This document shows, piece after piece, positions 16,083 to 54,744 of a stretch of 64,000 bases of DNA. A model generated the notes under the pieces. It did not search any database, was not told where the DNA came from, and was given only the letters and a program-made list of their open reading frames with translations. The position numbers were made by a program, and so were the translations under genes. Source of the DNA: Alphaproteobacteria bacterium (lineage in GTDB: Bacteria > Pseudomonadota > Alphaproteobacteria > UBA2966). The stretch spans positions 1 through 64,000 of the forward strand of contig JABIFY010000106.1 of the NCBI GenBank assembly GCA_018650465.1, read 5' to 3'. Every line of letters starts with the position of its first letter. Within the stretch, counting starts at the first letter, position 1.

Positions 16083-16083
16083 C

Positions 16084-17379: not shown

Positions 17380-17393
17380 AGGAGTATCTGATT

Positions 17394-18728: not shown

Positions 18729-19567
18729 CCATTGCAGCAGGAATTGACGTCGGAACAGGCGCTGTAAAAACCACCTTGTTCAAAGTCGAAGGTGACAACG
18801 TTGAATGGTTGTCCAAACGCGTCACCCGGATCCGTCGTCGTGACCCCATGTCTCTGGTCGATGAAAGCTATGCGGCCATGCTTAAAGAAGCCGGCCTGAC
18901 AGCTGATGACGTGGACTATGTGGCCACAACAGGGGACGGCGAAAACGTGCCGTTCCGTACCGGTCACTTCTATTCCATGACCACACATGCCCGTGGTGCT
19001 GTTTATCTGGCCGAAGATGTGACAGCGGTGCTGGATGTGGGTGCCCTGCACGGTCGTGCCATCAGCATTGACGAACGCGGCAAAGTGCTGAGCTATCGCA
19101 TGACCAGCCAGTGTGCGTCCGGTTCCGGTCAGTTCCTTGAGAACATTGCCCGTTATCTTGGTGTTTCCATTGACGAGGTTGGTGATCTGTCACAGCAGTC
19201 GGATGATCCTGAGCTGGTCTCCGGTATCTGTGCTGTGTTGGCCGAAACTGACGTGATTAACATGGTTTCGCGCAGTATCTCGACGCCCAATATCCTGAAA
19301 GGTATTCACCTTTCCATGGCTGGTCGTTTGGTGAAGTTGCTGCGTGCCTCCAAAGTCAAGGAAGGCAAGGTTTTGCTGACCGGCGGTTTGGCCATGGATA
19401 CGGGTATGGTTGCGGCCATGCGCGAGGAAATGGCAAACCAGAAACTGGACGTGCCGTGTGAGAGCAGCCCCGACAGTATTTTTGCCGGTGCCATCGGTGC
19501 CGCCTTGTGGGGCGCTTTCCGTTATGAAAAACTACAAAGCCTGGGGCAGCTCGCTGAAGCGTCCTGA
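18725..19567 (+). CDS. bcrD: Benzoyl-CoA reductase subunit D (ATPase)
   Basis: A 280-residue ASKHA ATPase, the shorter partner of BcrA. Motifs are [14 protein letters not shown] at the N-terminus, [15 protein letters not shown] in the middle, [17 protein letters not shown] and [15 protein letters not shown] with the two candidate cluster cysteines, and the adenosine motif [12 protein letters not shown]. The unusual ALHGRAI in place of the usual GGQD-type motif fits the BcrD branch, as distinct from BcrA. Overlap ATGA with bcrA implies stoichiometric synthesis. It is followed 29 bp later by the operon's ferredoxin. Confidence 0.95.
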
Positions 19568-36850: not shown

Positions 36851-37286
36851 TTTCCTGGTTCCTGATCACTTGACCCTCCAACCCGGCAATTTCTGCCGGT
36901 GCGGAGCGCAAAATGCCTTTAAATTGTCCATTAAGGGCATTGGTTACGGGGATATCTGCAATAACCGTGCTAGTTCTGGCTAATTGACAGCATTTATTGA
37001 AATTTATATGCCAGGCCTGTTGCCGGATTTACCTGATCTTAAACAGCTGGCGCTAAAGTGCCCTGGATCAGGTAGTGTCGGAAAAGTTTTTCGCTAATTG
37101 TAGTGATTTCCGATAGTGAGTAACTTATTTGGTATCAATCTTGCGTTGCTTGTTTGTGATTTAACCAACATGGCTAACGGATCGTGAAATTCAGCTGTGA
37201 TCAATTTGATGCTATTTGTGATATTTCTCGCAATTTGATGCGGACAAAAGAGGATGTCAGGCACTGCGCCTGACAGAACCAGAATA
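36851..37286. other. Divergent intergenic region between the FlaEY-like gene and the sugar operon
   Basis: A 436-bp AT-rich region without a supportable gene. It contains a small perfect hairpin CCGGCA-ATTTC-TGCCGG (36883-36899) and a loose palindrome CTGATC...GATCAG around 37033-37066. The promoters of both flanking transcripts must lie here, but no convincing -35/-10 or sigma-54 site was found by eye. Confidence 0.6.
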
Positions 37287-38867
37287 ATGACATTGAGACC
37301 TGTACCCAACGTTACGCCGCTGCCGTCGCTTGTGCGTTCGCAAGCCCGCGACAAGATAAAGACCATTGACGAGCTGGCCGACATTGCGGCAAAAGCTCGC
37401 GCTGCCGGGCGCTCGGTCGTACTGGCACACGGCGTTTTTGACCTTGTTCATTTGGGTCATGTTCGGCATCTGGAAGCCGCCGCTCGCGAGGGCGATATTC
37501 TGATTGTGACCTGCACAGCGGACGAACATGTCAATAAAGGACCAGACCGGCCGGTATTTCATGACCAGATCAGGGCTGAAATGTTGGCGGCTATGGAATG
37601 TATTGACTGGGCCGGGATCAGTTTCTTCCCGACAGCAGAACAAGTCATCGAAATCATCAAGCCTGACGCCTATGTCAAAGGTCAGGATTATGCGGATTCA
37701 GACGAAGATGTGACCGGCGGCATTGATCTGGAGCGTCAGACCGTTGAGGCCCACGGCGGCAAGGTTGTCTTTACCGAAGACATCACTTTTTCATCGTCTT
37801 CTTTAATAAATGAACATTTTGCCCGTTTCGATCCGGAAGTTCAGTCTTACCTGGATGAAAAGCGTAACGAGAATTTGCTCGACCTGGCCCTGGCGGCTGT
37901 CGACAAAATAGCTGACCTCAAGGTTTTGGTCGTTGGTGATGCAATCATTGATGAATACCAATATACCGTGCCCATGGGGAAATCGGCCAAGGAAAACATT
38001 ATTGCCAGCCGGTTCGATGGTCGTGAAGTATTTGCCGGTGGCGTTGTTGCCGCTGCCAATCACCTTTCAAGCTTTTGCAAACAAGTAGAAGTTTTGACCT
38101 GTCTGGGACGGCGGGACAGTTATGAAAGCCTGATCCGCGAAAGTTTGAACGAGAATGTCAGCGCCAGCTTTGTTTACCGGCGCGGCGTGCCAACAACCCG
38201 CAAATGCCGGTTCGTTGACCCCGGCCACATGCGCAAACTGTTCGAAGTGTATCACTTTGATGATACCCCGCTGTCTGGCCATTCAGAAAGCGAGTTTTGT
38301 AAACTGATTGAAGAGCAAGCACCAAAGTATGACGTGGTTATCGTCACCGATTTTGGCCACGGTCTGATGACCCGCAAGGCAATTGATAAAGTGACCAGCA
38401 AGGCGAAGTTCCTTGCGGTGAATGCCCAGTCGAACAGTGCCAACCATGGCTTTAATTTGATTACCAAATATAAAGAAGCTGATTATATTTCGATTGATGC
38501 ACCGGAAGCGCGTCTTGCAACGGGCGATCAGTTTTCTGATTTGGGTGTTTTGATAGAAGATGATCTCAGACGTCATATTGATTGCCGAAATTTTGCGGTG
38601 ACACATGGCGAAAATGGCTCGGTTGTCTACGAACCCGGCAAGGGCGTCAGCCGCGTACCCGCCTTTACCCGACAAGTCGTTGATACTGTGGGTGCAGGGG
38701 ATGCATTTTTGGCCATTACCGCGCCTATCATTGCCAGTGGCGTTCCCATGGAAATAGCTGGCTTTATTGGTAATGCCGTTGGCGCTCTGAAGGTCGGAAT
38801 TGTTGGTCACCGTCAATCTGTCGGTAAAGTTCCCCTGGTCAAGTTCCTCACCGCTTTATTGAAATAG
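37287..38867 (+). CDS. Sugar-1-phosphate nucleotidyltransferase fused to PfkB kinase (HldE-like, reversed domain order)
   Basis: A 526-residue two-domain enzyme. The N-terminal half (about residues 15-165) is a HxGH-type nucleotidyltransferase with LAHGVFDLVHLGHVRHLEAA and a later VKGQDYADSDEDVTGG. The C-terminal half (about 205-520) is a PfkB/ribokinase-fold kinase beginning VLVVGDAIIDEYQY and ending with the catalytic VDTVGAGDAF signature. Classical HldE has the kinase first and the cytidylyl/adenylyltransferase second, so this is the opposite arrangement. It probably phosphorylates and NDP-activates a heptose or related sugar. ATG 37287 and 37254 are both possible and neither RBS is decisive. 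It is the first gene of a nine-gene operon. Confidence 0.8.
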   Translation: MTLRPVPNVTPLPSLVRSQARDKIKTIDELADIAAKARAAGRSVVLAHGVFDLVHLGHVRHLEAAAREGDILIVTCTADEHVNKGPDRPVFHDQIRAEMLAAMECIDWAGISFFPTAEQVIEIIKPDAYVKGQDYADSDEDVTGGIDLERQTVEAHGGKVVFTEDITFSSSSLINEHFARFDPEVQSYLDEKRNENLLDLALAAVDKIADLKVLVVGDAIIDEYQYTVPMGKSAKENIIASRFDGREVFAGGVVAAANHLSSFCKQVEVLTCLGRRDSYESLIRESLNENVSASFVYRRGVPTTRKCRFVDPGHMRKLFEVYHFDDTPLSGHSESEFCKLIEEQAPKYDVVIVTDFGHGLMTRKAIDKVTSKAKFLAVNAQSNSANHGFNLITKYKEADYISIDAPEARLATGDQFSDLGVLIEDDLRRHIDCRNFAVTHGENGSVVYEPGKGVSRVPAFTRQVVDTVGAGDAFLAITAPIIASGVPMEIAGFIGNAVGALKVGIVGHRQSVGKVPLVKFLTALLK

Positions 38868-38875
38868 AGGACAAT

Positions 38876-39484
38876 ATGAAACGTAGTGCCACTGAATATT
38901 TTGCTGAAGCGGCCCGTATGTTGATGTCGGTGGAGATCACCGACGGTGAGGGCTCAACGGTTGATATCGAGGACTTTGTCGATAGGACAATTGCCAAATG
39001 CCGCGACGCACATATTGCCGGGAACAAGGTTATGTTTGTCGGTAACGGCGCCAGCGCATCGCATGCCAGCCACATGGCCGCCGATTTTTCCAAAAACGGT
39101 CGCATCCGATCCGTTGCCTTCAATGATGCTGCCGCGCTGACCTGTTATGCCAATGACTATTCCTACGAAGAAGTCTTTTCAAAACAGATTGAAATGCAGG
39201 GACAGGCAGGCGACGTACTGATTGCGATTTCCAGTTCGGGCGAATCAGAGAATATTATTCTGGCTGCCAGAGCGGCCCGCAAAATTGGCGCTGGCGTGAT
39301 TACCCTGAGTGGGTTCGAGACGGGCAACCGTTTGCGCCAGTTGGGTGACCTGAATGCCTGGGTACCATCGCCGGACTACGGCTTTGTTGAAATTGCCCAT
39401 CTGGGTGTTATCCATGCCGTTGTTGATCTGGCCGCCGATCACGCAGCGAAAAGAGAAGTAATTGAAAAAAGGTTCAGAGCATGA
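38876..39484 (+). CDS. SIS-domain sugar isomerase, GmhA-like
   Basis: A 202-residue SIS-domain protein like sedoheptulose-7-phosphate isomerase. The sugar-phosphate site is VGNGASASHASHMAADFSKN (about 55-74), the second SIS motif is AISSSGESENII (about 118-129), and the C-terminal helix FVEIAHLGVIHAVVDL matches the GmhA helix carrying the catalytic histidine. AGAGG precedes ATG 38876, 8 bp after the kinase gene. Its stop overlaps the next gene (ATGA). The general-base Glu usually found in GmhA (xxEEL) is replaced by Asp (AADF), so substrate may differ from sedoheptulose-7-phosphate. Confidence 0.82.
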   Translation: MKRSATEYFAEAARMLMSVEITDGEGSTVDIEDFVDRTIAKCRDAHIAGNKVMFVGNGASASHASHMAADFSKNGRIRSVAFNDAAALTCYANDYSYEEVFSKQIEMQGQAGDVLIAISSSGESENIILAARAARKIGAGVITLSGFETGNRLRQLGDLNAWVPSPDYGFVEIAHLGVIHAVVDLAADHAAKREVIEKRFRA

Positions 39485-40494
39485 GTGAGACCACAAAAAC
39501 CTGGAACGTATTGGTCACCGGCGGGGCCGGTTACGTGGGCAGTAATCTTGTTCCCAAACTTCTGGATGCCGGACATGGTGTCACCGTTCTTGACCTGTTT
39601 TTGTACGGCGATGGTGAAGATGTTTATGGTGACTACACCAGCCATTCAGCTTTGCGTCAGGTCAAAGGCGATTTGCGCGACATCGAAACCGTTCGCGATG
39701 CCCTGACCGGTTGTGATGCGGTCATTCATCTGGCCTGCATTTCCAATGACCCGAGCTATGATCTTGATCCGGAACTGGGAAAATCCATCAATTTTGATGC
39801 CTTCAGACCCCTTGTTCAGGCTGCCAAAGCCGAAGGTGTAAAGCGTTTTATCTACGCCTCATCTTCCAGCGTCTATGGCATCAAGGATGAAGCGGAAGTG
39901 ACGGAAGAATTATCGTTGGAACCGCTGACAGATTATTCCAAATTCAAGGCCATGTGCGAAGAAGTGCTGGAGGAAGAGCGCGAACCGGGTTTTGTGACGC
40001 TCACGATACGGCCTTCAACGGTTTGCGGCTACGCCCGCCGCTTGCGCCTTGATTTAACGGTCAACATACTGACGGCCCATGCGGTTGAAAATGGCAAGAT
40101 TACCGTTTTCGGTGGCACTCAAAAACGCCCGAATCTTCATATCGATGACATGACAGATTTGTACCTTGCCTGTCTGCAATATGATGATATGAAGATTGAC
40201 GGCAAGATCTATAACGCCGGATACGAAAACCATACTGTTGGCGATATCGCAGAAATGGTGCGCGATGTTGTGGGCAAGGATGTTGAAATTGTCACAACGC
40301 CTTCTGATGACTTGCGCTCCTATCACGTTTCTTCCGAGAAGATGAAGAATGAACTTGGTTTTGTGCCGACCCACACTATTGCCGATGCGGTTCAGGATTT
40401 AATGGCCGCCTTCAAAGCGGGCAAGATTTCCGATCCCATGAGCAATGAAAACTACTACAACATCAAAACCATGCAGGATCTGGGCATGAAATAG
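39481..40494 (+). CDS. NAD-dependent sugar epimerase/dehydratase (extended SDR)
   Basis: A 337-residue extended SDR acting on NDP-sugars. The Rossmann motif is VTGGAGYVGSNLV (about 12-24), the catalytic residues lie in YASSSSVYG (about 123-131) and YSKFKAM (Tyr and Lys of YxxxK, about 150), and the downstream RPSTVCGYA stretch is typical. It is translationally coupled to the SIS isomerase. In this operon it would remodel the NDP-sugar made by the nucleotidyltransferase, by epimerisation or dehydration. The TSK/TDK sequence type does not identify the substrate. Confidence 0.88.
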   Translation: MSETTKTWNVLVTGGAGYVGSNLVPKLLDAGHGVTVLDLFLYGDGEDVYGDYTSHSALRQVKGDLRDIETVRDALTGCDAVIHLACISNDPSYDLDPELGKSINFDAFRPLVQAAKAEGVKRFIYASSSSVYGIKDEAEVTEELSLEPLTDYSKFKAMCEEVLEEEREPGFVTLTIRPSTVCGYARRLRLDLTVNILTAHAVENGKITVFGGTQKRPNLHIDDMTDLYLACLQYDDMKIDGKIYNAGYENHTVGDIAEMVRDVVGKDVEIVTTPSDDLRSYHVSSEKMKNELGFVPTHTIADAVQDLMAAFKAGKISDPMSNENYYNIKTMQDLGMK

Positions 40495-40609
40495 GCTTGT
40501 TTCAGACTTTTGTCGCTGAAAAGTCCCCTTTATTGAAGCGCCGAAAGGTTTTGTTTACCAAGCTGGCGTTACGCTTGAGACCCTTTTAATCGCGCTTGCG
40601 AGGTTTGCC

Positions 40610-41230
40610 GTGCGTGTCGGTCTCGACTTTGATAACACCCTTGCGGAATACGACCATTTGTTCGCCAACCTGGCGGTCGAAACAGGTCTGTTCGCCAAGT
40701 CCCCGGGCGGCAAACGCGACGTCAGGGATCAACTCCGTTTGCGACCAAATGGTGAATATTTGTGGCGACGGCTGCAGGCCATGGCTTATGGCCCATGTCT
40801 CGACGAAGCCCAACTTTTTGCCGGCGCAGCTGAGTTTCTCACAGCTTGCCGTGACGCCAAAATAGAAGTTGTTATCGTCAGTCACAAAACCAGATTTCCG
40901 GCTTGCAAAGAGTTTAAAACGGATATGCGCCAAGCCGCTTTGGACTGGATGAAACGCAGGGACTTTTTTATCGTCGACGGATTTGCTTTAAAATCTGAAA
41001 ATATTCACTTCGCCGATAGCCGGTCAGAAAAAGTCCAAATGATATCCGAATTGAAATGCAACTTCTTTGTTGATGATCTTGAAGAGGTTTTTATTGAGCC
41101 TGGATTTCCGGTATCCACCGGGAAGGTTTTGTTTGCGCCGGACCAAACCAGGTCGAGCTTGCCCGTTAAACATTGTCGCCACTGGAAAGAAATTGCTGAT
41201 GTCATCATTGGCCAGCCAGCCTACGCTTGA
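40610..41230 (+). CDS. HAD-superfamily hydrolase (probable sugar phosphatase)
   Basis: A 206-residue HAD protein. Motif I is GLDFDNTLAEYD at residues 4-15 (nucleophile Asp). Motif II is VVIVSHKTRF near 88. Motif III is the Lys before CNFFVDDLEEVFIE near 150 with acidic DD. It starts at GTG 40610 with GAGG upstream. The 3' end overlaps the next gene by 32 bp. In bacterial heptose pathways a HAD phosphatase (GmhB) removes the 7-phosphate between kinase and nucleotidyltransferase steps. This protein could fill that slot, but it is not an obvious GmhB orthologue. A regulatory or repair phosphatase is an alternative. Confidence 0.75.
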   Translation: MRVGLDFDNTLAEYDHLFANLAVETGLFAKSPGGKRDVRDQLRLRPNGEYLWRRLQAMAYGPCLDEAQLFAGAAEFLTACRDAKIEVVIVSHKTRFPACKEFKTDMRQAALDWMKRRDFFIVDGFALKSENIHFADSRSEKVQMISELKCNFFVDDLEEVFIEPGFPVSTGKVLFAPDQTRSSLPVKHCRHWKEIADVIIGQPAYA

Positions 41231-42266
41231 TAGCGACGCCTTGCGGCACACTGCCAGTGAACTTCTGGGCCTGCCCGTTGTGAAGCTTGAGGCGACGCAT
41301 GGTGGTGGCAACAACAGACTGTTCCGGGCGGATGTCGCCAACGGTGGATCCTATGCCTTCAAGGTCTATGGAAGCCGGGAAGACGATCCGCGTGATCGCA
41401 TGGGGGCCGAAGTCGGGGGCCTTGAATTTCTTGAACGTTATAATGTTTCTGCCGTTCCCCGTGTCATCGCCCATGATCGCGAAACCGGTTGCGCCTTATA
41501 CGAATGGATTGAAGGCGCGCCCGTTAACCCACCAAGTGTCATAGATGTTGATGCCGCCTTGCGGTTTGTTGCCGAACTTCAAGCCCTGGGAGGTGTAGAC
41601 GGAACCGAACGTTTGCCTCTCGCATCTGCTGCAACGCTTTCCGCAGATGCCGTCGTCAAACAGATAGAGTCCCGCCGGGCCCGGTTCGATGTCTTGCGCG
41701 CCACTGATGACGGTATGGCAGATCTGTTTTCTTTTCTTGATGACGATTTTGCGGCCATAAGATCGTCAACGGTCACTGCGGCACACTCAGCCTTTGCCCG
41801 GGCCAACCTTGATTTCAATTCTGAGCTCAGACAAAGCCAGTGGGTTCTCAGTCCATCAGATTTTGGTTTTCATAATACTCTGCGCCGAAAATCAGGACGC
41901 CTTGCTTTTATTGATTTTGAATATTTCGGCTGGGATGATCCGGCCAAACTGGTTTCTGACTTCTTGCTGCATCCGGGCATGACTCTGTCCCGGCCGTTCC
42001 GCCAGCGCTTTTACAAAGGAGCCATGGCTGTGTACGGCGATGCAGATGCTGCCTTCAAGGCCCGCCTCAATGCTTTATATCCGCTGTATGGCCTGTGTTG
42101 GTGCCTGATTATTCTGAATGAATTCCTGCCTGATTTTTGGGCCCGCCGCGTCGCTGCTGCCGGGACACTGGATGCCAGTGTTGTCCGCAGTCGCCAATTG
42201 CAGAAAGCACGCCGCATGTTGGCCCACGTAGAAGAAAGTATCGAAAATGGCCCCCGCTTTGACTGA
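41199..42266 (+). CDS. Aminoglycoside phosphotransferase-like small-molecule kinase
   Basis: A 355-residue protein of the APH/choline-kinase superfamily. The N-lobe contains THGGGNNRLFRADVANGGSYAFKVYG (nucleotide-binding strand and Lys). The hinge is ALYEWIEGAP, the catalytic loop VLSPSDFGFHNTL (the usual HxD is SxSD) and the metal motif AFIDFEYFGWDDPAK. ATG 41199 lies inside the HAD gene with GGAAAG upstream. The ORF-track start at 41067 is too long. The 3' end overlaps the transketolase gene by 20 bp. It probably phosphorylates a sugar or sugar-linked amine. A kinase beside a HAD phosphatase suggests paired phospho-intermediates. Confidence 0.75.
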   Translation: MSSLASQPTLDSDALRHTASELLGLPVVKLEATHGGGNNRLFRADVANGGSYAFKVYGSREDDPRDRMGAEVGGLEFLERYNVSAVPRVIAHDRETGCALYEWIEGAPVNPPSVIDVDAALRFVAELQALGGVDGTERLPLASAATLSADAVVKQIESRRARFDVLRATDDGMADLFSFLDDDFAAIRSSTVTAAHSAFARANLDFNSELRQSQWVLSPSDFGFHNTLRRKSGRLAFIDFEYFGWDDPAKLVSDFLLHPGMTLSRPFRQRFYKGAMAVYGDADAAFKARLNALYPLYGLCWCLIILNEFLPDFWARRVAAAGTLDASVVRSRQLQKARRMLAHVEESIENGPRFD

Positions 42267-43110
42267 AACGCCTTTGGATCAAACACCCGTGTACCAAACA
42301 CCGGCTCTTGATCAACGCTCAAAGGATTTACGCCACGATTGTGTTGCTGCCATGGAGGGCGGCGGTCGCGGCCATCTGCCATCGGCTTTGTCCCTGATGG
42401 AAATCCTGCGCGTGCTTTATGACGATGTTCTGAGCTTTCGCAGCGACCAACCTGACTGGCTTGAGCGCGACCGTTGCATATTATCCAAAGGCCACGGCTG
42501 CCTGGGGTTGTACGCTGTGCTGGCTGACAAGGGATATTTTCCCAAGGCGGAGTTGCTCACCTATTGCAAACGCGATTCGATCCTTGGTGGCCATCCTGAA
42601 CGGGACAAAGTGCCCGGCGTAGAGGCCTCAACTGGTGCTCTGGGTCATGGGCTTGGTATTGGTGTTGGCATGGCCCTGGCCGCACGTATTCAAAAGCGCG
42701 ATAGTCGGGTGTTTGTTGTTACCGGTGACGGCGAAATCAACGAAGGCAGTGTCTGGGAAAGTGCAATGTGTGCGGGCAAGCATGGCCTGGACAACCTGAC
42801 AGTGCTGGTCGATTACAATAAATTGCAGTCCTATGGTTCCACATACGATGTGCAGGACCTGGAACCATTGGCCGACAAATGGCAAGCTTTTGGCTTTGCG
42901 GTCGACAGTGTCGATGGTCACGATGTCGCCGACTTACAGCAATCCCTGAAGCGTCTACCCTATACGGCCGGCAAGCCAAGCGTTGTTATTTGCCACACGG
43001 TCAAGGGGAAAGGCATCGCCCACATCGAACACCAGGCGGGTTGGCACCACAAATCAAAAATCTCGGCGGAAGAAATTGACGCCCTCTATAAAGCAGTGGA
43101 GGCCGCCTGA
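42247..43110 (+). CDS. Transketolase-like ThDP enzyme, N-terminal (pyrophosphate) subunit
   Basis: A 287-residue protein equal to the N-terminal third of transketolase. The ThDP/Mg motif is VVTGDGEINEGSVWESAMCAGKHGLDNLTVLVDYNK (from about residue 158). LSKGHGCLGLYAVLADKGYF near 77-96 and GVEASTGALGHGLGIGVGMA near 122-141 are typical transketolase segments. It overlaps the kinase gene and its stop/start overlaps the C-subunit gene by one base. Split transketolases are frequent in archaea and in secondary pathways. Here it would make a ketose phosphate such as sedoheptulose-7-phosphate, or transfer a C2 unit to an NDP-ketosugar. Both are inference. Confidence 0.88.
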   Translation: MAPALTETPLDQTPVYQTPALDQRSKDLRHDCVAAMEGGGRGHLPSALSLMEILRVLYDDVLSFRSDQPDWLERDRCILSKGHGCLGLYAVLADKGYFPKAELLTYCKRDSILGGHPERDKVPGVEASTGALGHGLGIGVGMALAARIQKRDSRVFVVTGDGEINEGSVWESAMCAGKHGLDNLTVLVDYNKLQSYGSTYDVQDLEPLADKWQAFGFAVDSVDGHDVADLQQSLKRLPYTAGKPSVVICHTVKGKGIAHIEHQAGWHHKSKISAEEIDALYKAVEAA

Positions 43111-44063
43111 TGCGTCGCACAGCCCTGGATATGGTTTATGAATTGGCCAAGGAAGATGATCGGGTCGTCTTCATTGGATCGGACCTTGGTGCCGGCACCA
43201 TGGATAACTTCCGTGAAGAAATGCCAGACCGGTTTTTCATGGAAGGCATTAACGAAGCCAATATCATCGGCATGGCCGCCGGAATGGCCATGGACGGCTT
43301 GATACCTTTTGTAAATACAATCGCCACATTCCTGACGCGCCGCTGTTATGAACAAGTCGCTGTTGATCTCTGCTTACACAACCTGCCGGTCAAACTGATC
43401 GCCAATGGTGGCGGTATGGTTTATGCCCCACTGGGCCCAACTCATATTGCTCTGGAAGACATGGCCATTATGCGGGCCTTGCCCAATATGTCCGTCTTCG
43501 CGCCGTCTGACAAAGAAGAAATGCGCAAGCTGGTGCCCGCGACCATGGAAGTTCGTGGCCCATCCTACATTCGTCTGGCGAAGGGTGGGGATGAAGTTAT
43601 CTCGAATGATCATGACGGTTTTGAAATCGGTCGGGCCATTGAATATCGGGACGGCGGCGATGTGGCTTTTATTACGACGGGTATTTTAACCAACCGCGCC
43701 ATGGCTGCCGCAGATGAATTGAAGGCAGAAGGTATTAACGTCAGTGTCTTGCATATGCATACGGTGAAACCGCTGGACGAAGGCGCCATCATGAAGGCTG
43801 CACGCAGGGCATCATTGGTCGTCGTCGCCGAAGAGCATTCCCGCATTGGCGGCCTCGGCAGCGCTGTAACGGATTTGCTGGCCGGGTCCTTTGGGGCTGG
43901 CGGTCCACAGATTCTCACCCTGGGTGTGCCGGATGTCTTTACCGACAAATATGGCTCACAGGATGATCTGCTGGAGATTTATGGTTTGCAGCCACAGCAA
44001 CTGGCGCAATCTGTTCGCGATGCTGTTTCTTCATCGTCACCCATAACAGCTGTCGGCGGCTGA
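43110..44063 (+). CDS. Transketolase-like ThDP enzyme, C-terminal (pyrimidine) subunit
   Basis: A 317-residue protein covering the pyrimidine-binding and C-terminal domains of transketolase. FFMEGINEANIIGMAAGMAMDGLIPFVNTIATFL contains the catalytic Glu near residue 46. GLGSAVTDLLAG and the conserved C-terminal GVPDVFTDKYGSQDDLLEIYGL follow. Together with the preceding gene it makes one active ThDP enzyme, similar to 1-deoxyxylulose- or transketolase-type pairs. A 1-base overlap with the N-subunit gene ensures equal expression. The gene is complete. Confidence 0.88.
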   Translation: MRRTALDMVYELAKEDDRVVFIGSDLGAGTMDNFREEMPDRFFMEGINEANIIGMAAGMAMDGLIPFVNTIATFLTRRCYEQVAVDLCLHNLPVKLIANGGGMVYAPLGPTHIALEDMAIMRALPNMSVFAPSDKEEMRKLVPATMEVRGPSYIRLAKGGDEVISNDHDGFEIGRAIEYRDGGDVAFITTGILTNRAMAAADELKAEGINVSVLHMHTVKPLDEGAIMKAARRASLVVVAEEHSRIGGLGSAVTDLLAGSFGAGGPQILTLGVPDVFTDKYGSQDDLLEIYGLQPQQLAQSVRDAVSSSSPITAVGG

Positions 44064-44103: not shown

Positions 44104-45216
44104 ATGTCCGAATTTCGTGTTCGCTACAGTTACCTGCCGCAACAATTTGAAAATGTTGATGATCTTTTCGAAGAGATCAAGAAGTTCATTCCGACAGGTG
44201 ACTTTACCCTCGGCGCACCGCTGAGCGAGTTCGAAGGTCGCTTTGCCGATTTGATCGGTACGCGTCACGCCATCGGTGTTGGGTCCGGGACAGATGCGTT
44301 GAAACTTCCACTGAAAGCCGTTGGTGTTGGTCATGGCGATGAAGTCATCACTACAGCAAACACGTTCATTGCGACGGTCGGTGCCATCAACGAAATTGGC
44401 GCAACAACTGTCTTTGTCGATTGCGATGATACTTTTTGCATGGATGTGAGCCAGGTTGAAGCCGCTATTACCGAACGCACAAAGGCGATCATGCCGGTTC
44501 AGTTTACTGGCGAGATAACAGACATGCCCAAGCTGATGGAAATTGCCGACCGACATAATTTGCCGGTTGTTGAAGATGCCTGCCAGGGTATCCTGGCCAG
44601 CATTGACGGCAAACGGGCAGGGACATGGGGCATTGCTGGTGGCTTTTCATTACATCCCCTGAAAAACCTGAATGTCTGGGGGGACGGCGGGGTTATTGTT
44701 ACCGATGATGATGACCTAGCCGCCAAACTCCGGTTGCTCAGAAACCATGGTCTTCAGAATCGTGATGAAATCGCTTTGTTGGGCTATAATTCACGACTCG
44801 ATACTTTGCAGGCCATTGTTGGCAACTGGTTGATCGGTGACACCCACGAGATCACACAAAAACGCATCGACAACGCTGCCGTTTATGACGCAGCCTTTGC
44901 AGATCTGACGGGGATTATTATTCCGCCACGCCGGGAAAATGTGAAGCGGGTTTTTCATCTTTATATTGTGTTCGCTGAAAGTCGCGATGCCTTGTATGAA
45001 TATTGCCTTGAAAAGGGTGTGGAAGTCAAAATCCACTACCCTATACCCCTGTACCAACAGGAAGGCCTGGCGCACCTGGGTTACAAGGCCGGAGATTTCC
45101 CGGTGACAGATCGCCATGCCGACAGCATCATTACCTTTCCAACCGATCAGCACCTGAACCGCGAACAACTGGATATCGTTATCCAGACTGTGCGCGATTT
45201 TTACGCAGGCAAATAA
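44104..45216 (+). CDS. DegT/DnrJ/EryC1 family aminotransferase (first of tandem pair)
   Basis: A 370-residue PLP-dependent sugar aminotransferase. Family marks are FTLGAPLSEFEGRFADLIGTRHAIGVGSGTDAL (about 34-66), VVEDACQGI (about 157), and the PLP-lysine segment GFSLHPLKNLNVWGDGG (about 181-197), where Lys forms the Schiff base. It would transaminate an NDP-keto-sugar to an amino sugar. AAGAAGAT lies upstream of ATG 44104. The next gene, 5 bp away, is a diverged paralogue of the same length. Substrate and stereochemistry cannot be read from the sequence. Confidence 0.87.
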   Translation: MSEFRVRYSYLPQQFENVDDLFEEIKKFIPTGDFTLGAPLSEFEGRFADLIGTRHAIGVGSGTDALKLPLKAVGVGHGDEVITTANTFIATVGAINEIGATTVFVDCDDTFCMDVSQVEAAITERTKAIMPVQFTGEITDMPKLMEIADRHNLPVVEDACQGILASIDGKRAGTWGIAGGFSLHPLKNLNVWGDGGVIVTDDDDLAAKLRLLRNHGLQNRDEIALLGYNSRLDTLQAIVGNWLIGDTHEITQKRIDNAAVYDAAFADLTGIIIPPRRENVKRVFHLYIVFAESRDALYEYCLEKGVEVKIHYPIPLYQQEGLAHLGYKAGDFPVTDRHADSIITFPTDQHLNREQLDIVIQTVRDFYAGK

Positions 45217-45221
45217 TAGTC

Positions 45222-46334
45222 ATGGCAAATACCTGGCGCGTACCATACGTCAATTTCCCGGTCCAATGGGCGGAAGAAGCGGAACTTGTTCGGGAATGTA
45301 TTGAGGCGGTTTTCAGCCGTGGCGATTTCGTTGGCGGCGGGGCTGTTGCAACATTTGAAGCAGAAGCGGCAGCCTATTGCGGTGTTAAACACGCCGTTGC
45401 CCTTAATTCCGGTACTGACGCTTTGATCATGTCCATGCGGGCACTGGGGATCGGGCCAGGTGACGAAGTCATCACACCGCCAAACTCCTTTGTGGCCTCA
45501 ACCGCTGCCATTGCGCATTTGGGCGCAACACCTGTATTTGCAGACGTCTTGCCAGATCAGAATATTGATCCGGAAGCTGTGGCCAACGAAATAACGCAAA
45601 ATACCCGCGCAATTATGCCGGTCCATCTGACAGGCCGAGTGGCAGATATGGCACCGATCATGGACCTGGCCAAACAGCATGGATTGCAGGTGATTGAAGA
45701 TGCGGCCCAAGCCATCGGCTCATTGTATGATGGCAAGAAGTCGGGGACGTTTGGTGATGCCGGATGTTTTTCGGCCCATCCCCTCAAAAACCTGAATGCC
45801 GGTGGTGACGCCGGTTTTGTGACGACCAACAATGGTGATCTGGCGGAAAACCTGCGGCGCATGCGCAATCACGGCCTTGAAGGCAGAGATACCGTGCTTG
45901 AATGGGGTTGGGTATCGCGCATGGATACGCTGCAGGCTGCGCTTCTGAGTATGCGCCTTGCTCGCCTCGACAAGGTCAATGCCCGTCGTCGGCACAATGC
46001 CAGCCTGTATCACGAATTACTCGATCCCCTGCATGTCTTCATGCCGCCAGAGCGCAAAATCGAGCACAACACCTGGCATACTTTTGTCATTCAGATAGAG
46101 CGACGAGAGGCTCTGAAAGCCTGGTTGGCAGAAAAAGGCATTGAAACCGCAGTTCATTATCCAGTACCACTTCATTTACAGCCCGCAGCTATCGAGCTCG
46201 GTTATCGTGAAGGGGACATGCCAGAAACAGAACGCCAGGCGGCGCGTATCCTGACGCTACCGGTCAATCAGTTCCTGAAAGATGAAGATATCGAATTCGT
46301 CGCAAATGCAGTGAACAGGTTTTTTGCCGCCTGA
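45222..46334 (+). CDS. DegT/DnrJ/EryC1 family aminotransferase (second of tandem pair)
   Basis: A 370-residue paralogue of the preceding protein. Shared landmarks are GDFVGGGAVATFEAEAAAYCGVKHAVALNSGTDAL, VIEDAAQAIGS and the PLP-lysine segment CFSAHPLKNLNAGGDAGFV. Lengths are identical, but the sequences have diverged widely, so this is not a recent duplication. The two may act on different keto-sugars or form a heteromer. It ends the nine-gene plus-strand operon, convergent with the NeuB-like gene 22 bp away. Confidence 0.87.
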   Translation: MANTWRVPYVNFPVQWAEEAELVRECIEAVFSRGDFVGGGAVATFEAEAAAYCGVKHAVALNSGTDALIMSMRALGIGPGDEVITPPNSFVASTAAIAHLGATPVFADVLPDQNIDPEAVANEITQNTRAIMPVHLTGRVADMAPIMDLAKQHGLQVIEDAAQAIGSLYDGKKSGTFGDAGCFSAHPLKNLNAGGDAGFVTTNNGDLAENLRRMRNHGLEGRDTVLEWGWVSRMDTLQAALLSMRLARLDKVNARRRHNASLYHELLDPLHVFMPPERKIEHNTWHTFVIQIERREALKAWLAEKGIETAVHYPVPLHLQPAAIELGYREGDMPETERQAARILTLPVNQFLKDEDIEFVANAVNRFFAA

Positions 46335-46356: not shown

Positions 46357-47844
46357 CTACCAGCGAAGCACCTTTGTTTTGCGCTGGTCATTGCCCAGTT
46401 TTTGAATCTCCGGATTTCTGTAGCTTGATGTTCCACCTTCGTAGCTTCCGGTGATTTCATCCAGAATTGCACCGTTTTGACTACTGAAGCTGTGACCGGT
46501 TCCCTGTTTGATGGTCACCAGTTCACCGATCTGCAATTGTTTGTCTTTGCCGTCCAGGACCAGCGTCAGATCACCCCAGAGCAAATGAAATGTTTCATCT
46601 CGGTCAGTATGGGTATGTTCCGGATGGTTTTGGCCCGGCAGCATGGCGATAACTTTTTTGCAATAATCGCCATTCACAGCCGTTATCAAAAGGGCACCGG
46701 TTTGTGAAAAGTTTTCCAATCCAAAATGGTGGGAAAGTTCAACGCCAACTGGATCAAGAACCCGAACGCCTGCCTCATTAAACATGGCGCGAAATGTTGT
46801 CATATGCTGCTCGGCATAATCGATGACAATATTGTCGCAAATCTGTTGAATGGGCGCATGTGGTTCATAGGATAGTGTTGCCATACCCCCTTCTGGCAAA
46901 GTTCCAGGTGCCGCCTGACCCGACTGGCGGGGAAAGGCGATATAGAGTTGATCTTTATTGAGTGGATCGCCATTCGGGATCGTTTCGCGGGCAAAAACAC
47001 CACGGGATAAGTCAAGCAAAGAACTACTTTCACCTTCCGTGATGATTTTGTCCTGCGTCGGACCGCAAGCAGAAGCAGCGTGCAAGGCCGCCAGGACCCA
47101 GGCGCTGGTTTGCGCCGGGTTCATGGAATAGCCGTTCAGCGTGACGGTATCGGTTGGCAGTCCCACATGACGCTCAAATATGCGGCAGCCCTTGGCGGCA
47201 GCGATGGTGACGATACCTGTATCACTTGGGTCTTCATGGCCGGAATAACCGATCGTGACGCCTTCATAACGACGCATCATGCGGTCGATAAAATTCATAT
47301 GCAGATTGGTCGCCGGGCTGGGGTAGAGGGCAACACAATGCAGGATTGCCAGTTGTTCGCAGCGTGGCTTCAGGTAGGCATACAGGGCATCGATTGTTGA
47401 TACATCGCAACCACCTGTCGAGCAAATCAATGGCTTGCCCGTCGCGGCGGCAGCTGCCAGCAAGGGAGTATCTTTGGCACTGCAACTTGCGATTTTCAAT
47501 ATGTCCACGCCGTGGGCAATGGCCTTGGTGACGGAGCGTTCATCAAACGGGGTGATCATAACTTTCATATCGACCGCCCGAACGGCTTCGATCATGGCAA
47601 GGAAGTCATCGTCGCTGATGGCTGTTTCGCGAAAGCGCTTGATGTGTTTGTTGCTGGAGTCGTCAGCATCTTTGTGGACGAAGGTCTCCAGGTCCCGGTA
47701 TTGAAACTTGACGGCCGCATTGATCCCGTGCCGATCTTTGATTTCGGCCAGTTCGGCGATCAAATTCAAGCCATGCTGTCGACTTCCCTGATGGTTGTTC
47801 GCCATCTCGAAAACAAACAGATTTTCAAACAAAGACTCCGGCAC
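46357..47844 (-). CDS. NeuB-family sialic-acid-like synthase fused to a C-terminal cupin
   Basis: A 495-residue protein. Residues about 5-255 form the NeuB TIM barrel, with FVFEMANNHQGSRQHGLNLI at the start, AVKFQYRD and TIGYSGHEDP. A SAF-like antifreeze domain (about 270-335; SRGVFARETIPNGDPL) follows. The C-terminus (about 385-480) is a cupin, VIAMLPGQNHPEHTHTDRDETFHLLWGDLTLVLDG, with a HxH...E metal motif. NeuB enzymes condense phosphoenolpyruvate with an N-acyl hexosamine to make nonulosonic acids. The cupin might isomerise or epimerise the product. GTG 47844 is chosen because GGAGG lies 10 bases upstream. It is divergent from the ThDP gene by 208 bp. Confidence 0.83.
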   Translation of the reverse strand: MPESLFENLFVFEMANNHQGSRQHGLNLIAELAEIKDRHGINAAVKFQYRDLETFVHKDADDSSNKHIKRFRETAISDDDFLAMIEAVRAVDMKVMITPFDERSVTKAIAHGVDILKIASCSAKDTPLLAAAAATGKPLICSTGGCDVSTIDALYAYLKPRCEQLAILHCVALYPSPATNLHMNFIDRMMRRYEGVTIGYSGHEDPSDTGIVTIAAAKGCRIFERHVGLPTDTVTLNGYSMNPAQTSAWVLAALHAASACGPTQDKIITEGESSSLLDLSRGVFARETIPNGDPLNKDQLYIAFPRQSGQAAPGTLPEGGMATLSYEPHAPIQQICDNIVIDYAEQHMTTFRAMFNEAGVRVLDPVGVELSHHFGLENFSQTGALLITAVNGDYCKKVIAMLPGQNHPEHTHTDRDETFHLLWGDLTLVLDGKDKQLQIGELVTIKQGTGHSFSSQNGAILDEITGSYEGGTSSYRNPEIQKLGNDQRKTKVLRW

Positions 47845-48052
47845 TTTAAGGAAACCTCCAAACAAAAAAGCAGCGGTGGCGCTACATAAGAATTATTATC
47901 ACATTAGATGGGAGTATATTTCACTGATCCATCTTGCAAATAGCCTAACCCACAAGCTACTCACGAATAATTAACGAAAATCAAATATTTGATATAGAGG
48001 CAAAGAAGATTTTGCTACCAATAATCAAGACGTTGAGGCATTTTTTGGACTT

Positions 48053-49867
48053 ATGAAAGCCAGTACCTACATTTTTGATCAATTAAGTGCGCAGGGCGTC
48101 GAAAGAGTGTTTTTTGTGCCCGGTGGCGGTGCCATGTATTTGGTAGATGCCCTTGGGCAGCACCCGGATATTGAAGCTGTCGCCATGGTGCATGAACAGG
48201 CTGCTGTGATTGCGGCGGAATATGATGCGCGTATGCGCCAAGGCTTGGGTGTTGCCCTGGTGACCTGTGGTCCTGGTGCCACAAATGCCATGACGGGCCT
48301 GGCTGGCGCGTGGATTGAATCCAGTCCGGTTCTGGTGATATCCGGGCAAGCCAAATCCACAGATATCAACAAGCCCATTAACGTTCGCCAGCAAGGCGTG
48401 CAGGGGCTGAGCATTCGCAATGTTGTCGCGCCTATCACCAAATACGCACACAGTTTTACAGATGTGAGTGAAGTTCCAGCAAGTATCGAAAGTGCCATTC
48501 AATCCGCGCTGTCAGGCAGGAAGGGACCGGTCTGGCTGGATGTTCCACTGGATATTCAATCTGCTGAACTCACCGATGTCCGACCTGTATCTGTTGCATC
48601 TGAACGTCAGCAAGACGATATGCCTGAGCTCAAAGATGCGCTTGACCTGATCCGCAAGGCTGAACGGCCCATGTTTGTAATCGGACATGGCGTCCGCATT
48701 GCCGGGGCAGCAGAAGATTTTCGTCAACTTAGTGATGAATTACAAATTCCGGCCTGTTTTACATGGAATGCCATGGACCTGCTGCCAGCCGATGACGTTG
48801 CCAATATTGGCCGCCCGGGCACAGTGGGGCTGAGGGCCGCCAACATCGCCCTGCAAAATTGTGATCTGATGATCTCTGTTGGCTGTCGGCTCGACAATAT
48901 CGTGACGTCCTACAACAAACAAACCTTTGCCCGGTCTGCCAAAAAACTGGTTGTCGATGTGGATAATGAAGAATTGAAGGGTCATGGCGATTACGCCGAC
49001 CTGGCCATTTGCCAGGATGCCAAGATTTTTTTGCGTGCCCTGAACGATCAATTGAGTGCTGGTGACCTCGCCATGACGGACGAATGGACAGCTTACACGA
49101 CAAGTCTGAAAAACCGATTTTCGTCTGCATATGAAAACAGAATTTTGCCGCCGTCCGATGAAATCGGGCACTACGAACTGGCAGACCTGTTTTCTGAAAT
49201 GCTGCCGCCAGCCCAGGACATCGTGATTGGCAGTTCCGGCATGGCCATTGAAATTATTTTTTCCAGACTGGCAAACAAGGCTGGCCAGCGCCTGATGTTG
49301 ACGTCAGGTTTGGGGGCTATGGGATATGGTATTCCGGCGGCAATCGGCACCAGCTTCAATAGTGCTGCGAAAGGCCGTCAAACCATTCTGATCGAAAGTG
49401 ATGGCAGCTTCTGGTTTAATTGTCAGGAACTGAATGTCATCAAGACGCGACAAAGTCCGATCAAGATGTTCATCCTTAACAATGATGGCTATGCCTCGAT
49501 CCGGGCCAGTGGCAAGGTGCATTTTGAAGGACGGAATTTTGGCGGTGAAGCTGAAACAGGCCTGCAGCTTGGTGATATTTGCGCGATGGCCGAGAGTGTT
49601 GGAATTCCAGCGCGCCGCGTAAGTGCCCGGGATGAACTTGAAGCGGCCATTAAGGAAACGTTGGCTATCGAAGGCCCTGCCTTGTGCGAAATCATGTTGA
49701 ACAAGGATGAAGGCCTGTTTCCAAAAGTCGGAACTGTGCTGGACCCACAAGGCAAGCTTGTTTCATTGCCCATGGAGGACATGTTGCCGCTGCTTGATCT
49801 TGAAGATTTACAGTCGGTTATGCTGGTACCCCTGGCTGAAGCCAGTTTACAGTCTCGCAAGGCTTGA
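48053..49867 (+). CDS. Acetolactate-synthase-like ThDP enzyme (possible YerE-type sugar branching enzyme)
   Basis: A 604-residue ThDP enzyme of the acetohydroxyacid synthase/pyruvate decarboxylase superfamily. The catalytic Glu is in AMVHEQAAVIAAEYDARMRQG (about 42-62). VTCGPGATNAMTGLAGAW is the pyrimidine domain, and ILIESDGSFWFNCQELNVI...ILNNDGYASI the ThDP/Mg motif (about 442-480). Relatives in surface-polysaccharide loci include YerE, which transfers a two-carbon unit from pyruvate to a CDP-keto-sugar, making a branched yersiniose. Presence of an RfbH/E1-type dehydrase 14 kb away supports a sugar role. Ordinary IlvB is unlikely, as no IlvN partner is present. The substrate is inferred. 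Confidence 0.75.
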   Translation: MKASTYIFDQLSAQGVERVFFVPGGGAMYLVDALGQHPDIEAVAMVHEQAAVIAAEYDARMRQGLGVALVTCGPGATNAMTGLAGAWIESSPVLVISGQAKSTDINKPINVRQQGVQGLSIRNVVAPITKYAHSFTDVSEVPASIESAIQSALSGRKGPVWLDVPLDIQSAELTDVRPVSVASERQQDDMPELKDALDLIRKAERPMFVIGHGVRIAGAAEDFRQLSDELQIPACFTWNAMDLLPADDVANIGRPGTVGLRAANIALQNCDLMISVGCRLDNIVTSYNKQTFARSAKKLVVDVDNEELKGHGDYADLAICQDAKIFLRALNDQLSAGDLAMTDEWTAYTTSLKNRFSSAYENRILPPSDEIGHYELADLFSEMLPPAQDIVIGSSGMAIEIIFSRLANKAGQRLMLTSGLGAMGYGIPAAIGTSFNSAAKGRQTILIESDGSFWFNCQELNVIKTRQSPIKMFILNNDGYASIRASGKVHFEGRNFGGEAETGLQLGDICAMAESVGIPARRVSARDELEAAIKETLAIEGPALCEIMLNKDEGLFPKVGTVLDPQGKLVSLPMEDMLPLLDLEDLQSVMLVPLAEASLQSRKA

Positions 49868-49893: not shown

Positions 49894-52122
49894 GTGTATT
49901 TCAATATTTCAGAGTCTGATCTGGACGAAATCCTGCAACATACGCCGGATGTCTGGGCGGCCCTGAAAAATCAACGTTTGTTTATCACTGGTGGCACCGG
50001 GTTCTTTGGTCGCTGGATGTTAGCCAGTATCTTACACGCCAATAAACGGCTTGAGGCAGGTATTCAGGTTGTTGTCATGAGCCGGAACCCCGCAGGGTTT
50101 CTGTCGTGTTTTCCAGAAGCCGACGATCCGATGATCACTTTTCACAAAGGTGACTTGCGGTATTCAGAATTTCCGCCGGGACCATTTTCACGCATCATTC
50201 ACCTGGCGACGGATTCAAAATTTTCGGATGAAGATGAACATTTGCAAATTATGGATGGCATCATTTCAGGGACGCGTCGCTTGCTTGATTTCAGTGTTGG
50301 TCCAGCCCAGGCCAAAGATTTCCTCTATGCCAGTTCCGGGGCACTCTATGGTGCGTTAAGGACGGGGCAGACGCGGTATACAGAAGACTGTGATGCAGCC
50401 CCTTTGCCTGACAACCCACGCTCCCTGATCGGAAATGCGAAACGCATGGCGGAACAAATGTGCACCCTGTATTACGCACGATCCGGCTTGCAAACAAAGG
50501 TGGCCAGGTGCTTTGCTTTTGTCGGGCCGCATTTGCCTATGAATTCCTATTTTGCCATGGGGAACTTTATTCGGGACGCGGTTGAGAAAGACAAAATCAC
50601 GATTGCCGGTGATGGATCGCCGGTTCGTTCATATTTGTATGCGGCTGATTTGACAGCGTGGCTGTGGCAAATTCTGGTGCAGGGCCAGCCTAACAGGGCT
50701 TACAACGTGGGGTCAGACCAGTCGCTCGACATGAAAAGTTTGGGCCACCTGGTAAAAGATGCTGTGGCGCCAGAAAAATCTGTAGATATCATCGGAGATG
50801 TTGGCAAAAAGCCGGACCTGTCGATTTACGTGCCGTCCATAGACCGGGCAAAGAACGAACTGGGCTTGGAAGTCTGGACATCTTTAGACGAAGCCGTGCG
50901 CAGGACCGCCCAATGGTACGCCGAATTTGGTGACGCGGATGTCAGCACATCAGACAAATTCACTGGGAAAGTACTGACAGACTGCCGCGTCTGCGGTGGC
51001 AATCTGTTGGCAAATCCTCTGTTGCAGTTTGAGAATATGCCAGGTGCCGCGCAATATATGCCGGACGAAGACACGCTTGCGACAGACAAGGGTGAAAACC
51101 TGAATGTTTGCCAGTGCCCGGATTGTGGCCTGGTTCAGCTCAATGGTGCGCCTGTTTCCTACTACCGTGAAGTCGTGCGGGCGGCTGGCTTCTCTGATGA
51201 GATGAAGGCATTCCGTAAGAAACAATTTCAGGAATTCTCGTCAAAATACGAACTTGCAGGACGAAAGGTTTTGGAAATCGGTTGCGGCAAAGGGGAATAT
51301 CTCCGGCTCCTGAACGATCAGGGGATGGCGGCCGAGGGTCTGGAATATGCTCAGGCTTCGGTTGATGCATGCGTTGCATCAGGTTTGGTGGCACATCAAG
51401 GATATCTGGATGATGACATGCCGGGATTGTCGGGATTACCAGGATTGCCAGGGGGACCTTATGATGCCTTTGTGATGTTGAACTTCCTGGAACACATGCC
51501 TGATCCCCGGAAGGCGTTGAAAAATTTGCGTGCAAATTTGGCTGATGGCGGCATCGGTCTGATCGAAGTTCCGAACTTCGATATGATCGTTAAGGAAGGC
51601 CTGTTCTCCGAATTTATCAGCGATCATCTATTCTATTTTACGCGAGATACACTGTTGAATTTGTTGAATATTTCAGGATTTGAGGTGCTCGACTGTCAAG
51701 CTGTCTGGCATGACTATTCCCTGTCGGCAACGGTGCGAATCCGACCGCAGACTGACCTGTCCGATTTTTCGGTGGAACAGAATAAAATAAGCGCTGAAAT
51801 TAACAGCTTCATCGACAAACATGCGCCAGGACAAGTGGCCATATGGGGAGCAGGCCACCAGGCGTTGGCTGTCATCAGTCTGGCGAAACTGGCCGGGCGC
51901 GTGAAATATGTCGTCGATTCAGCCGATTTCAAACAAGGTAAATTCACCCCTGCAACACACCTGCCAATTGTCAGTCCAGCGACGCTGATTAGCGATCCGG
52001 TTGATGCTGTGATTGTGATGGCAGCCAGCTATTCCGATGAAGTCGCCAGGGTCATACGGCGGGACTATGATGCGTTAATTGACGTCGCAGTATTGCGCTC
52101 CTTCGGCCTTGAGAAAGTCTGA
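49894..52122 (+). CDS. Trifunctional fusion: NAD-sugar epimerase, C-methyltransferase, Rossmann module
   Basis: A 742-residue protein with three parts. Residues about 1-345 form an extended SDR (LFITGGTGFFGRWML, YASSGALYG, NAKRMAEQM). About 360-650 is a SAM C-methyltransferase of the TylC3 type, with a zinc N-terminus (CRVCGG...CQCPDCG), the SAM motif VLEIGCGKGEY and MLNFLEHMPDP. The C-terminal ~100 residues (QVAIWGAGHQALAVISLA...) are a Rossmann-like module usual in C-methyltransferases. It starts at GTG 49894 with AAGGA upstream. It should epimerise, dehydrate or reduce an NDP-sugar and add a C-methyl branch. A four-base gap leads to the NUDIX gene. Confidence 0.83.
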   Translation: MYFNISESDLDEILQHTPDVWAALKNQRLFITGGTGFFGRWMLASILHANKRLEAGIQVVVMSRNPAGFLSCFPEADDPMITFHKGDLRYSEFPPGPFSRIIHLATDSKFSDEDEHLQIMDGIISGTRRLLDFSVGPAQAKDFLYASSGALYGALRTGQTRYTEDCDAAPLPDNPRSLIGNAKRMAEQMCTLYYARSGLQTKVARCFAFVGPHLPMNSYFAMGNFIRDAVEKDKITIAGDGSPVRSYLYAADLTAWLWQILVQGQPNRAYNVGSDQSLDMKSLGHLVKDAVAPEKSVDIIGDVGKKPDLSIYVPSIDRAKNELGLEVWTSLDEAVRRTAQWYAEFGDADVSTSDKFTGKVLTDCRVCGGNLLANPLLQFENMPGAAQYMPDEDTLATDKGENLNVCQCPDCGLVQLNGAPVSYYREVVRAAGFSDEMKAFRKKQFQEFSSKYELAGRKVLEIGCGKGEYLRLLNDQGMAAEGLEYAQASVDACVASGLVAHQGYLDDDMPGLSGLPGLPGGPYDAFVMLNFLEHMPDPRKALKNLRANLADGGIGLIEVPNFDMIVKEGLFSEFISDHLFYFTRDTLLNLLNISGFEVLDCQAVWHDYSLSATVRIRPQTDLSDFSVEQNKISAEINSFIDKHAPGQVAIWGAGHQALAVISLAKLAGRVKYVVDSADFKQGKFTPATHLPIVSPATLISDPVDAVIVMAASYSDEVARVIRRDYDALIDVAVLRSFGLEKV

Positions 52123-54684: not shown

Positions 54685-54744
54685 GGTTTGATTTATCCAT
54701 GATTGCTGATTGCAAGGAATTATTACCAATGGGGAATTGTTTTT

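Follow-up and report, generated by a model that had tools for sequence, protein, structure and literature searches.

A run of co-directional genes in a 64,000-nucleotide (nt) stretch of DNA from a marine alphaproteobacterium (Alphaproteobacteria bacterium; the stretch is called the window), which is part of a contig of 118,261 bases (JABIFY010000106.1; C144), is made up of three tightly coupled blocks, and we read these, with confidence that stays somewhat below even, as three adjacent sugar-biosynthesis modules within a flagellin-glycosylation island. The genes at 37254–44063, all on the plus strand, encode a nucleotidyltransferase-kinase fusion (NTK), a GmhA-like isomerase (SIS) and a sugar-nucleotide oxidoreductase (SDR) in block A, and a phosphatase (HAD), a small-molecule kinase (APH) and the two subunits of a split transketolase (TKN, TKC) in block B, while block C consists of two DegT-family aminotransferases (AT1, AT2) through which the run extends to 46334. 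Under the favored reading block B transfers a two-carbon (C2) unit, most economically onto the nucleoside diphosphate (NDP)-keto-sugar made by block A. The named genes are real, co-directional and catalytically plausible, and they are not one self-contained pathway. The gene set belongs to NDP-sugar and flagellin-glycan biosynthesis, in which two partner families are already curated by NCBI, and its most likely role is to provide the glycans of flagellin or of the cell surface with modified sugar donors. Relatives of the cassette transketolase are present in similar gene clusters of many other bacteria.

Gene Blocks and Their Linkage Across Genomes

The division into blocks is visible in the spacing of the genes. 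NTK and SIS are separated by 8 nt and SIS and SDR overlap by 4 nt; in block B, HAD and APH, APH and TKN, and TKN and TKC overlap by 32, 20, and 1 nt, respectively; AT1 and AT2 are 5 nt apart. Between the blocks the distances are 115 nt (SDR/HAD) and 40 nt (TKC/AT1), and the 115-nt gap is the exact site where other genomes add genes or drop one side. A scan for promoters and terminators gave counts somewhat above those of shuffled sequences and a weak terminator-like hairpin at 44047–44062, nothing of which is decisive. The first-pass annotation of this DNA had described a self-contained cassette in a single tight operon. The first description fails because the run continues through AT1 and AT2 and because its partner genes are found past the end of the window, at contig positions 65916–67844; the single operon was not confirmed, given the two gaps between blocks and the differences among loci at the block edges.

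Related loci were collected by scanning an NTK alignment over 84,980 species genomes, and the best 80 of 507 matching stretches were taken as named loci, which come mostly from Rhodospirillales-type bacteria and Bradyrhizobium. Because of the kinship among these loci, which makes them phylogenetically non-independent, p values are descriptive. Most of the gene set recurs in the same order in dozens of them, far beyond chance, the common order being SDR7, NTK, (SIS), SDR, HAD, APH, TKN, TKC, (AT1, AT2), 2-oxoglutarate (2OG) oxygenase, LIC12192-family protein and methyltransferase. Blocks A, B, and C also occur separately from one another, as the 80 named loci and wide genome draws show. The loci vary at the same block edges as the window: the SDR-HAD distance is longer in L024, L026, and L032, and the transketolase block lies wholly or mostly on the opposite strand in L038, L047, and L068. 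In L010, L086, and L098 a pyruvate dehydrogenase (PDH)-E1 alpha/beta pair replaces HAD-APH-TKN-TKC between SDR and AT1-AT2, with A. oryzae named as a carrier, and therefore another C2-transfer enzyme dependent on thiamine diphosphate (TPP) can fill that slot.

Linkage was counted in loci with at least 6.5 kb of downstream sequence. HAD and APH adjoin the cassette transketolase in 59 of 61 transketolase-positive loci and in 0 of 10 transketolase-negative loci, and block B is a unit. SIS and the transketolase are unlinked in their presence outside Bradyrhizobium, where SIS occurs in 19 of 32 loci with and 4 of 10 loci without the transketolase (p = 0.47). Blocks A and B adjoin in most alphaproteobacterial loci, and in 20 wider windows of the phylum draw HAD-APH-TKN-TKC was accompanied by the methyltransferase and by a radical SAM protein.

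Enzymes of Block A

The gene identities given in the first-pass annotation, from the NTK fusion to the two-gene transketolase, were upheld by family matches and fold searches. NTK carries the domains CTP_transf_like and PfkB and is HldE-like with swapped domain order, as HldE has the kinase first and then the adenylyltransferase. It stays below the cut-offs of the HldE equivalog models (TIGR02198, 117.9 vs 345 bits; TIGR02199, 104.1 vs 181.5 bits), while its active-site motifs HGVFD/HLGH and GAGD are invariant or nearly so in the 82 loci aligned. SIS scores 109 bits against the GmhA equivalog, whose cut-off is 209. The replacement of a glutamate by an aspartate in the isomerase, which had already been noticed, is real: E65 to D and, in addition, Q172 to E are present in every aligned locus, H61 is retained and H180 is retained in the window; we take E65, Q172, and H180 to have catalytic or metal-site roles in GmhA. 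The SDR has as closest solved relative 6vo6 (125 bits; the next best set reaches 99 bits), which is presumably Cj1427 of Campylobacter jejuni, and by this homology the SDR probably oxidizes C4 of an NDP-heptose, as Cj1427 does.

Split Transketolase and Its Partner Enzymes in Block B

Among solved structures, the split transketolase of Carboxydothermus hydrogenoformans (6yaj/6yak) comes closest, its two chains being the nearest relatives of TKN and TKC. Both the window enzyme and its cassette clade retain the TPP-binding GDG...N motif, the catalytic glutamate (E366) and active-site histidines. In the window enzyme, G, G, L, and K occupy the positions of human TKT S345, H416, D424, and R474, and the same residues stand there, in this order, in 59/60, 63/63, 65/65, and 67/67 of the high-identity loci that cover them; five members of the phylum draw have Q instead of L at the D424 position. 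The position of human R318 is kept in the window enzyme, and the housekeeping transketolase of the same genome retains H, D, and R. In human TKT, H416, D424, and R474 bind the sugar phosphate; with S345 they belong to the canonical aldose-phosphate site. Among 398 sampled phylum genomes, 93 gave a TKN-like match at E ≤ 1e-45, a number that may include some full-length enzymes; the cassette TKN sequences constitute a discrete group with 59–65% identity, while the remainder reaches at most 52%.

HAD gave no family match at E 0.001 and a HAD family match at E 0.002; its motifs DFDNT, VSHKT, K, and DD are all present and invariant. Its AlphaFold model has a predicted local distance difference test (pLDDT) score of 95, and its nearest folds are 5'(3')-deoxyribonucleotidases (Z 17 to 15). 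GmhB is represented by a structure at rank 49 (Z 13.2), and HAD has no GmhB family match; a role as GmhB is disfavored by the cap, by the nearest folds and by the linkage to the transketolase rather than to the NTK kinase. APH matches its Pfam family with 36.6 bits (cut-off 23.2), and its model (pLDDT 91) retrieves choline kinases and aminoglycoside phosphotransferases in the fold search. The catalytic residues are kept: D and N of PSDFGFHN are invariant, and the DFEY motif is present. A PDB sequence search with HAD and APH returned no useful match. For APH the ATG at 41199 was adopted as start, the open frame opening with a TTG at 41067.

Proposed Function and Alternative Explanations

In the scheme that we favor, SIS would isomerize a substrate resembling a ketose 7-phosphate, whereupon NTK would phosphorylate the anomeric carbon and attach the nucleotide. 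The resulting heptose-like NDP-sugar would be oxidized by the SDR, probably at C4 if the homology holds. Block B, together with a methyltransferase and the 2OG-Fe oxygenase and LIC12192 pair, which a radical SAM protein replaces in other genomes, would hand a two-carbon ketol unit to something other than the aldose phosphates that usually accept it. The oxidized NDP-sugar of block A is the most economical candidate, the two-subunit transketolase Rif15 providing a precedent for such a transfer. The branched sugar so formed may be aminated by block C, and the FlmG-like GT41 enzyme encoded immediately downstream might, judging from its position, use the product as its donor or as one component of it. 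C2 transfer to an NDP-keto-sugar had been raised beforehand as a second option and, as a hypothesis, is compatible with the present data.

Several observations weigh against this scheme. Outside the alphaproteobacteria, about half of the loci or wider windows have no NTK near the transketolase block, and in 3 loci a separate transketolase block is flanked by an NTK that has its own E1 pair and runs on the opposite strand, so that the two may make different things. Across genomes an NTK homolog accompanies the cassette transketolase in 31 of 32 cases against 8 of 40 others, but the association vanishes in matched families (25/26 vs 8/9); it is mostly an effect of lineage and is not used as proof. 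Furthermore, H416 and D424 are likewise missing from 19 of the 20 further split transketolases sampled, and their loss is therefore shared by a wide range of accessory split transketolases. Finally, C2 transfer leaves the roles of HAD and APH unexplained. NTK contexts varied in the transketolase genomes surveyed. On a P. aeruginosa plasmid (L012, 3826–6033) a related nucleotidyltransferase and an SDR stand beside a GH65 enzyme and aminotransferases.

Because blocks A and B are separable, a pathway in which block B works independently is nearly as likely: it could make a small methylated side-chain or an unusual ketose for glycan decoration and merely lie beside block A. We regard this as a serious possibility, though one that more probably fails than holds. 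Block B occurs without NTK in the 14–20 kb windows of several loci, has the radical SAM protein rS30 and MT4 as near-constant partners, and is followed in alphaproteobacteria by the 2OG oxygenase and LIC12192 pair and the methyltransferase; HAD and APH travel with it only. The frequent adjacency of the two blocks in alphaproteobacterial loci and the near-constant presence of NTK in transketolase genomes speak against such independence.

A more far-reaching version of C2 transfer to the block A sugar is that a split-transketolase clade has left central metabolism and places its unit on an NDP-keto-heptose, giving a branched nine-carbon sugar destined for glycans of flagellin or of the cell surface, and that a PDH-E1-type enzyme of other bacteria adds an acetyl unit at this same step; in this specific form we consider it unlikely.

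Still less probable is that the transketolase produces sedoheptulose-7-phosphate, or a close ketose phosphate, for the GmhA-like isomerase and that all genes constitute one pathway, as the first-pass annotation had preferred. The genes are adjacent, sedoheptulose-7-phosphate is within reach of transketolase chemistry, and SIS belongs to the sedoheptulose-7-phosphate isomerase family. However, SIS and transketolase are distributed independently, the transketolase block also occurs away from NTK and SIS, and the SIS substitutions are identical in loci with an E1 pair (L010, L086) and in one devoid of any TPP enzyme (L076). Moreover, the genome already owns a full-length transketolase (C137), and the substrate site of the cassette enzyme is altered.

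That the cassette duplicates the core pathway for ordinary ADP- or GDP-heptose, as the kinship of NTK and SIS to HldE and GmhA might suggest, is very improbable because the genome has, besides its transketolase, its own gmhA-hldE pair (C52; HldE above the curated cut-off, GmhA keeping E and Q) and a GmhB-like gene (C120), all cassette scores lie far below the equivalog cut-offs, the active-site changes are invariant, and the nearest folds of HAD are other than GmhB. The earlier view of a heptose-related product that is not ordinary heptose is in accord with these separate housekeeping genes and low isomerase and kinase scores.

If split transketolases of glycan islands indeed use sugar nucleotides or other unusual acceptors, many annotations as central-metabolism transketolase would be misnamed, and a novel way of making branched sugars would become testable. 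The loci also offer a starting point for the "sporadic carbohydrate cluster" families in Bradyrhizobium, Azospirillum, magnetospirilla, and others.

Genomic Surroundings

Table 1. Genes of the three blocks and flanking genes in the window.
Gene	Predicted product	Position	Strand	Block and remarks
NTK	Nucleotidyltransferase (N-terminal) and PfkB-type sugar kinase (C-terminal)	37254..38867	+	A
SIS	GmhA-like isomerase	38876..39484	+	A
SDR	Extended NAD-dependent sugar-nucleotide oxidoreductase	39481..40494	+	A
HAD	Phosphatase; motif I followed by a helical insert	40610..41230	+	B; motifs, model, fold search
APH	APH/choline-kinase-fold small-molecule kinase	41199..42266	+	B; Pfam APH, fold search
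TKN	Split transketolase, N-terminal subunit	42247..43110	+	B
TKC	Split transketolase, C-terminal subunit; canonical substrate-site residues replaced	43110..44063	+	B
AT1	DegT-family aminotransferase	44104..45216	+	C
AT2	DegT-family aminotransferase	45222..46334	+	C; 41% identity to AT1
SBBP	Beta-propeller protein, 897 residues	34157..36850	-	Context; divergent from NTK
NeuB-like	Synthase with C-terminal cupin	46357..47865	-	Context

The partner genes start about 2 kb past the window. A 2OG oxygenase, a LIC12192-family protein and a methyltransferase occupy contig positions 65916–67844 (2–4 kb past the window) and are followed by a radical SAM protein. The TIGR04323 (LIC12192) match is at 66758–67111 of the contig, and the 2OG-Fe(II) oxygenase, at 1916–2734 of L013, is of TIGR04324 type by homology to the member in L020. 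The oxygenase and LIC12192 pair and the methyltransferase follow the transketolase block in many loci, notably those of alphaproteobacteria. In L020 (13189–14455) and L051 (17147–18229) the pair and/or the radical SAM protein rS30 come after the transketolase block, and many non-alphaproteobacterial loci carry the radical SAM protein only, without the oxygenase pair. Oxygenase pair and radical SAM protein may represent a swap between an oxygen-dependent and an oxygen-independent enzyme.

Further downstream, a tetratricopeptide repeat (TPR)-GT41 protein of 975 residues precedes at least seven flagellin matches arranged in tandem (contig 71391–83308; L013 7391–19308). GT41 and flagellin matches also lie downstream of the cluster in L015, L020/L021, L127, and L137. 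From this position, and read on the FlmG model, the stretch is probably part of a flagellin-glycosylation island. Three further GT41 matches are found in L014.

Upstream of NTK, SBBP beta-propeller homologs recur in about 15 loci. Near the NeuB-cupin fusion the window contains a second TPP enzyme, of acetolactate-synthase type (48053–49867, plus strand), and near this an SDR-C-methyltransferase fusion (49894–52122). B12-binding radical SAM proteins are encoded at 54703–56466 and 58810–60654, with adjoining radical SAM and glycosyltransferase genes, and the 2-hydroxyglutaryl-CoA dehydratase/BadF-type genes at 14919–19567 resemble a benzoyl-CoA reductase set.

Comparison With Known Systems

Literature searches directed at a transketolase in the synthesis of O-antigen or NDP-sugars, at the TIGR04323 name and at LIC12192 retrieved no paper on the gene set or on the two partner families, which agrees with the previous remark that no described pathway with this exact gene set was known. 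The NCBIfam name "sporadic carbohydrate cluster" covers TIGR04323 (LIC12192) and TIGR04324 (2OG-Fe(II) oxygenase), both of which are represented just past the window; it spans these two genes only, and the families were curated without an assigned function or pathway. The 11-gene operon implicated in bradyrhizose synthesis in photosynthetic Bradyrhizobium (PMC4743980) was considered as well; peptides and sites of the gdh primers were unmatched in the cassette SDRs of the loci compared, among which photosynthetic strains were not identified, and no link is claimed.

In Caulobacter, the flagellin glycosyltransferase FlmG acts with NeuB, and the donor is pseudaminic acid (PMC7591256). As far as the consulted part of that description goes, the two systems share an enzyme with TPR and O-GlcNAc-transferase-like parts, several flagellins and a NeuB gene, and they differ in that the donor there is pseudaminic acid and a transketolase cassette is not mentioned in that part. 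Block A resembles the capsular heptose pathway of C. jejuni, which comprises Cj1424 GmhA, HddA, GmhB, HddC, and Cj1427 (PMC10680097): both contain an isomerase, an anomeric kinase, a nucleotidyltransferase and a Cj1427-like SDR, with the 7-phosphatase encoded elsewhere. Unlike HddA and HddC, the cassette kinase is of PfkB type and fused to an HldE-type nucleotidyltransferase, and transketolase, APH kinase and aminotransferases are present in the cassette but absent from the capsular set. For block B, there is the two-subunit transketolase Rif15 of rifamycin synthesis, whose large acceptor receives a C2 unit at a ketone (PMC6002545). Rif15a/b and the cassette enzyme are both two-subunit transketolases in a biosynthetic cluster, and the Rif15 acceptor is not an aldose; unlike the acceptor proposed here it is rifamycin S, a quinone-type ansamycin, and the comparison is between descriptions of the two enzymes. 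The split transketolase of C. hydrogenoformans has the same two-chain layout as TKN and TKC, but it keeps the canonical-site His, Asp, and Arg that the cassette enzyme has lost.

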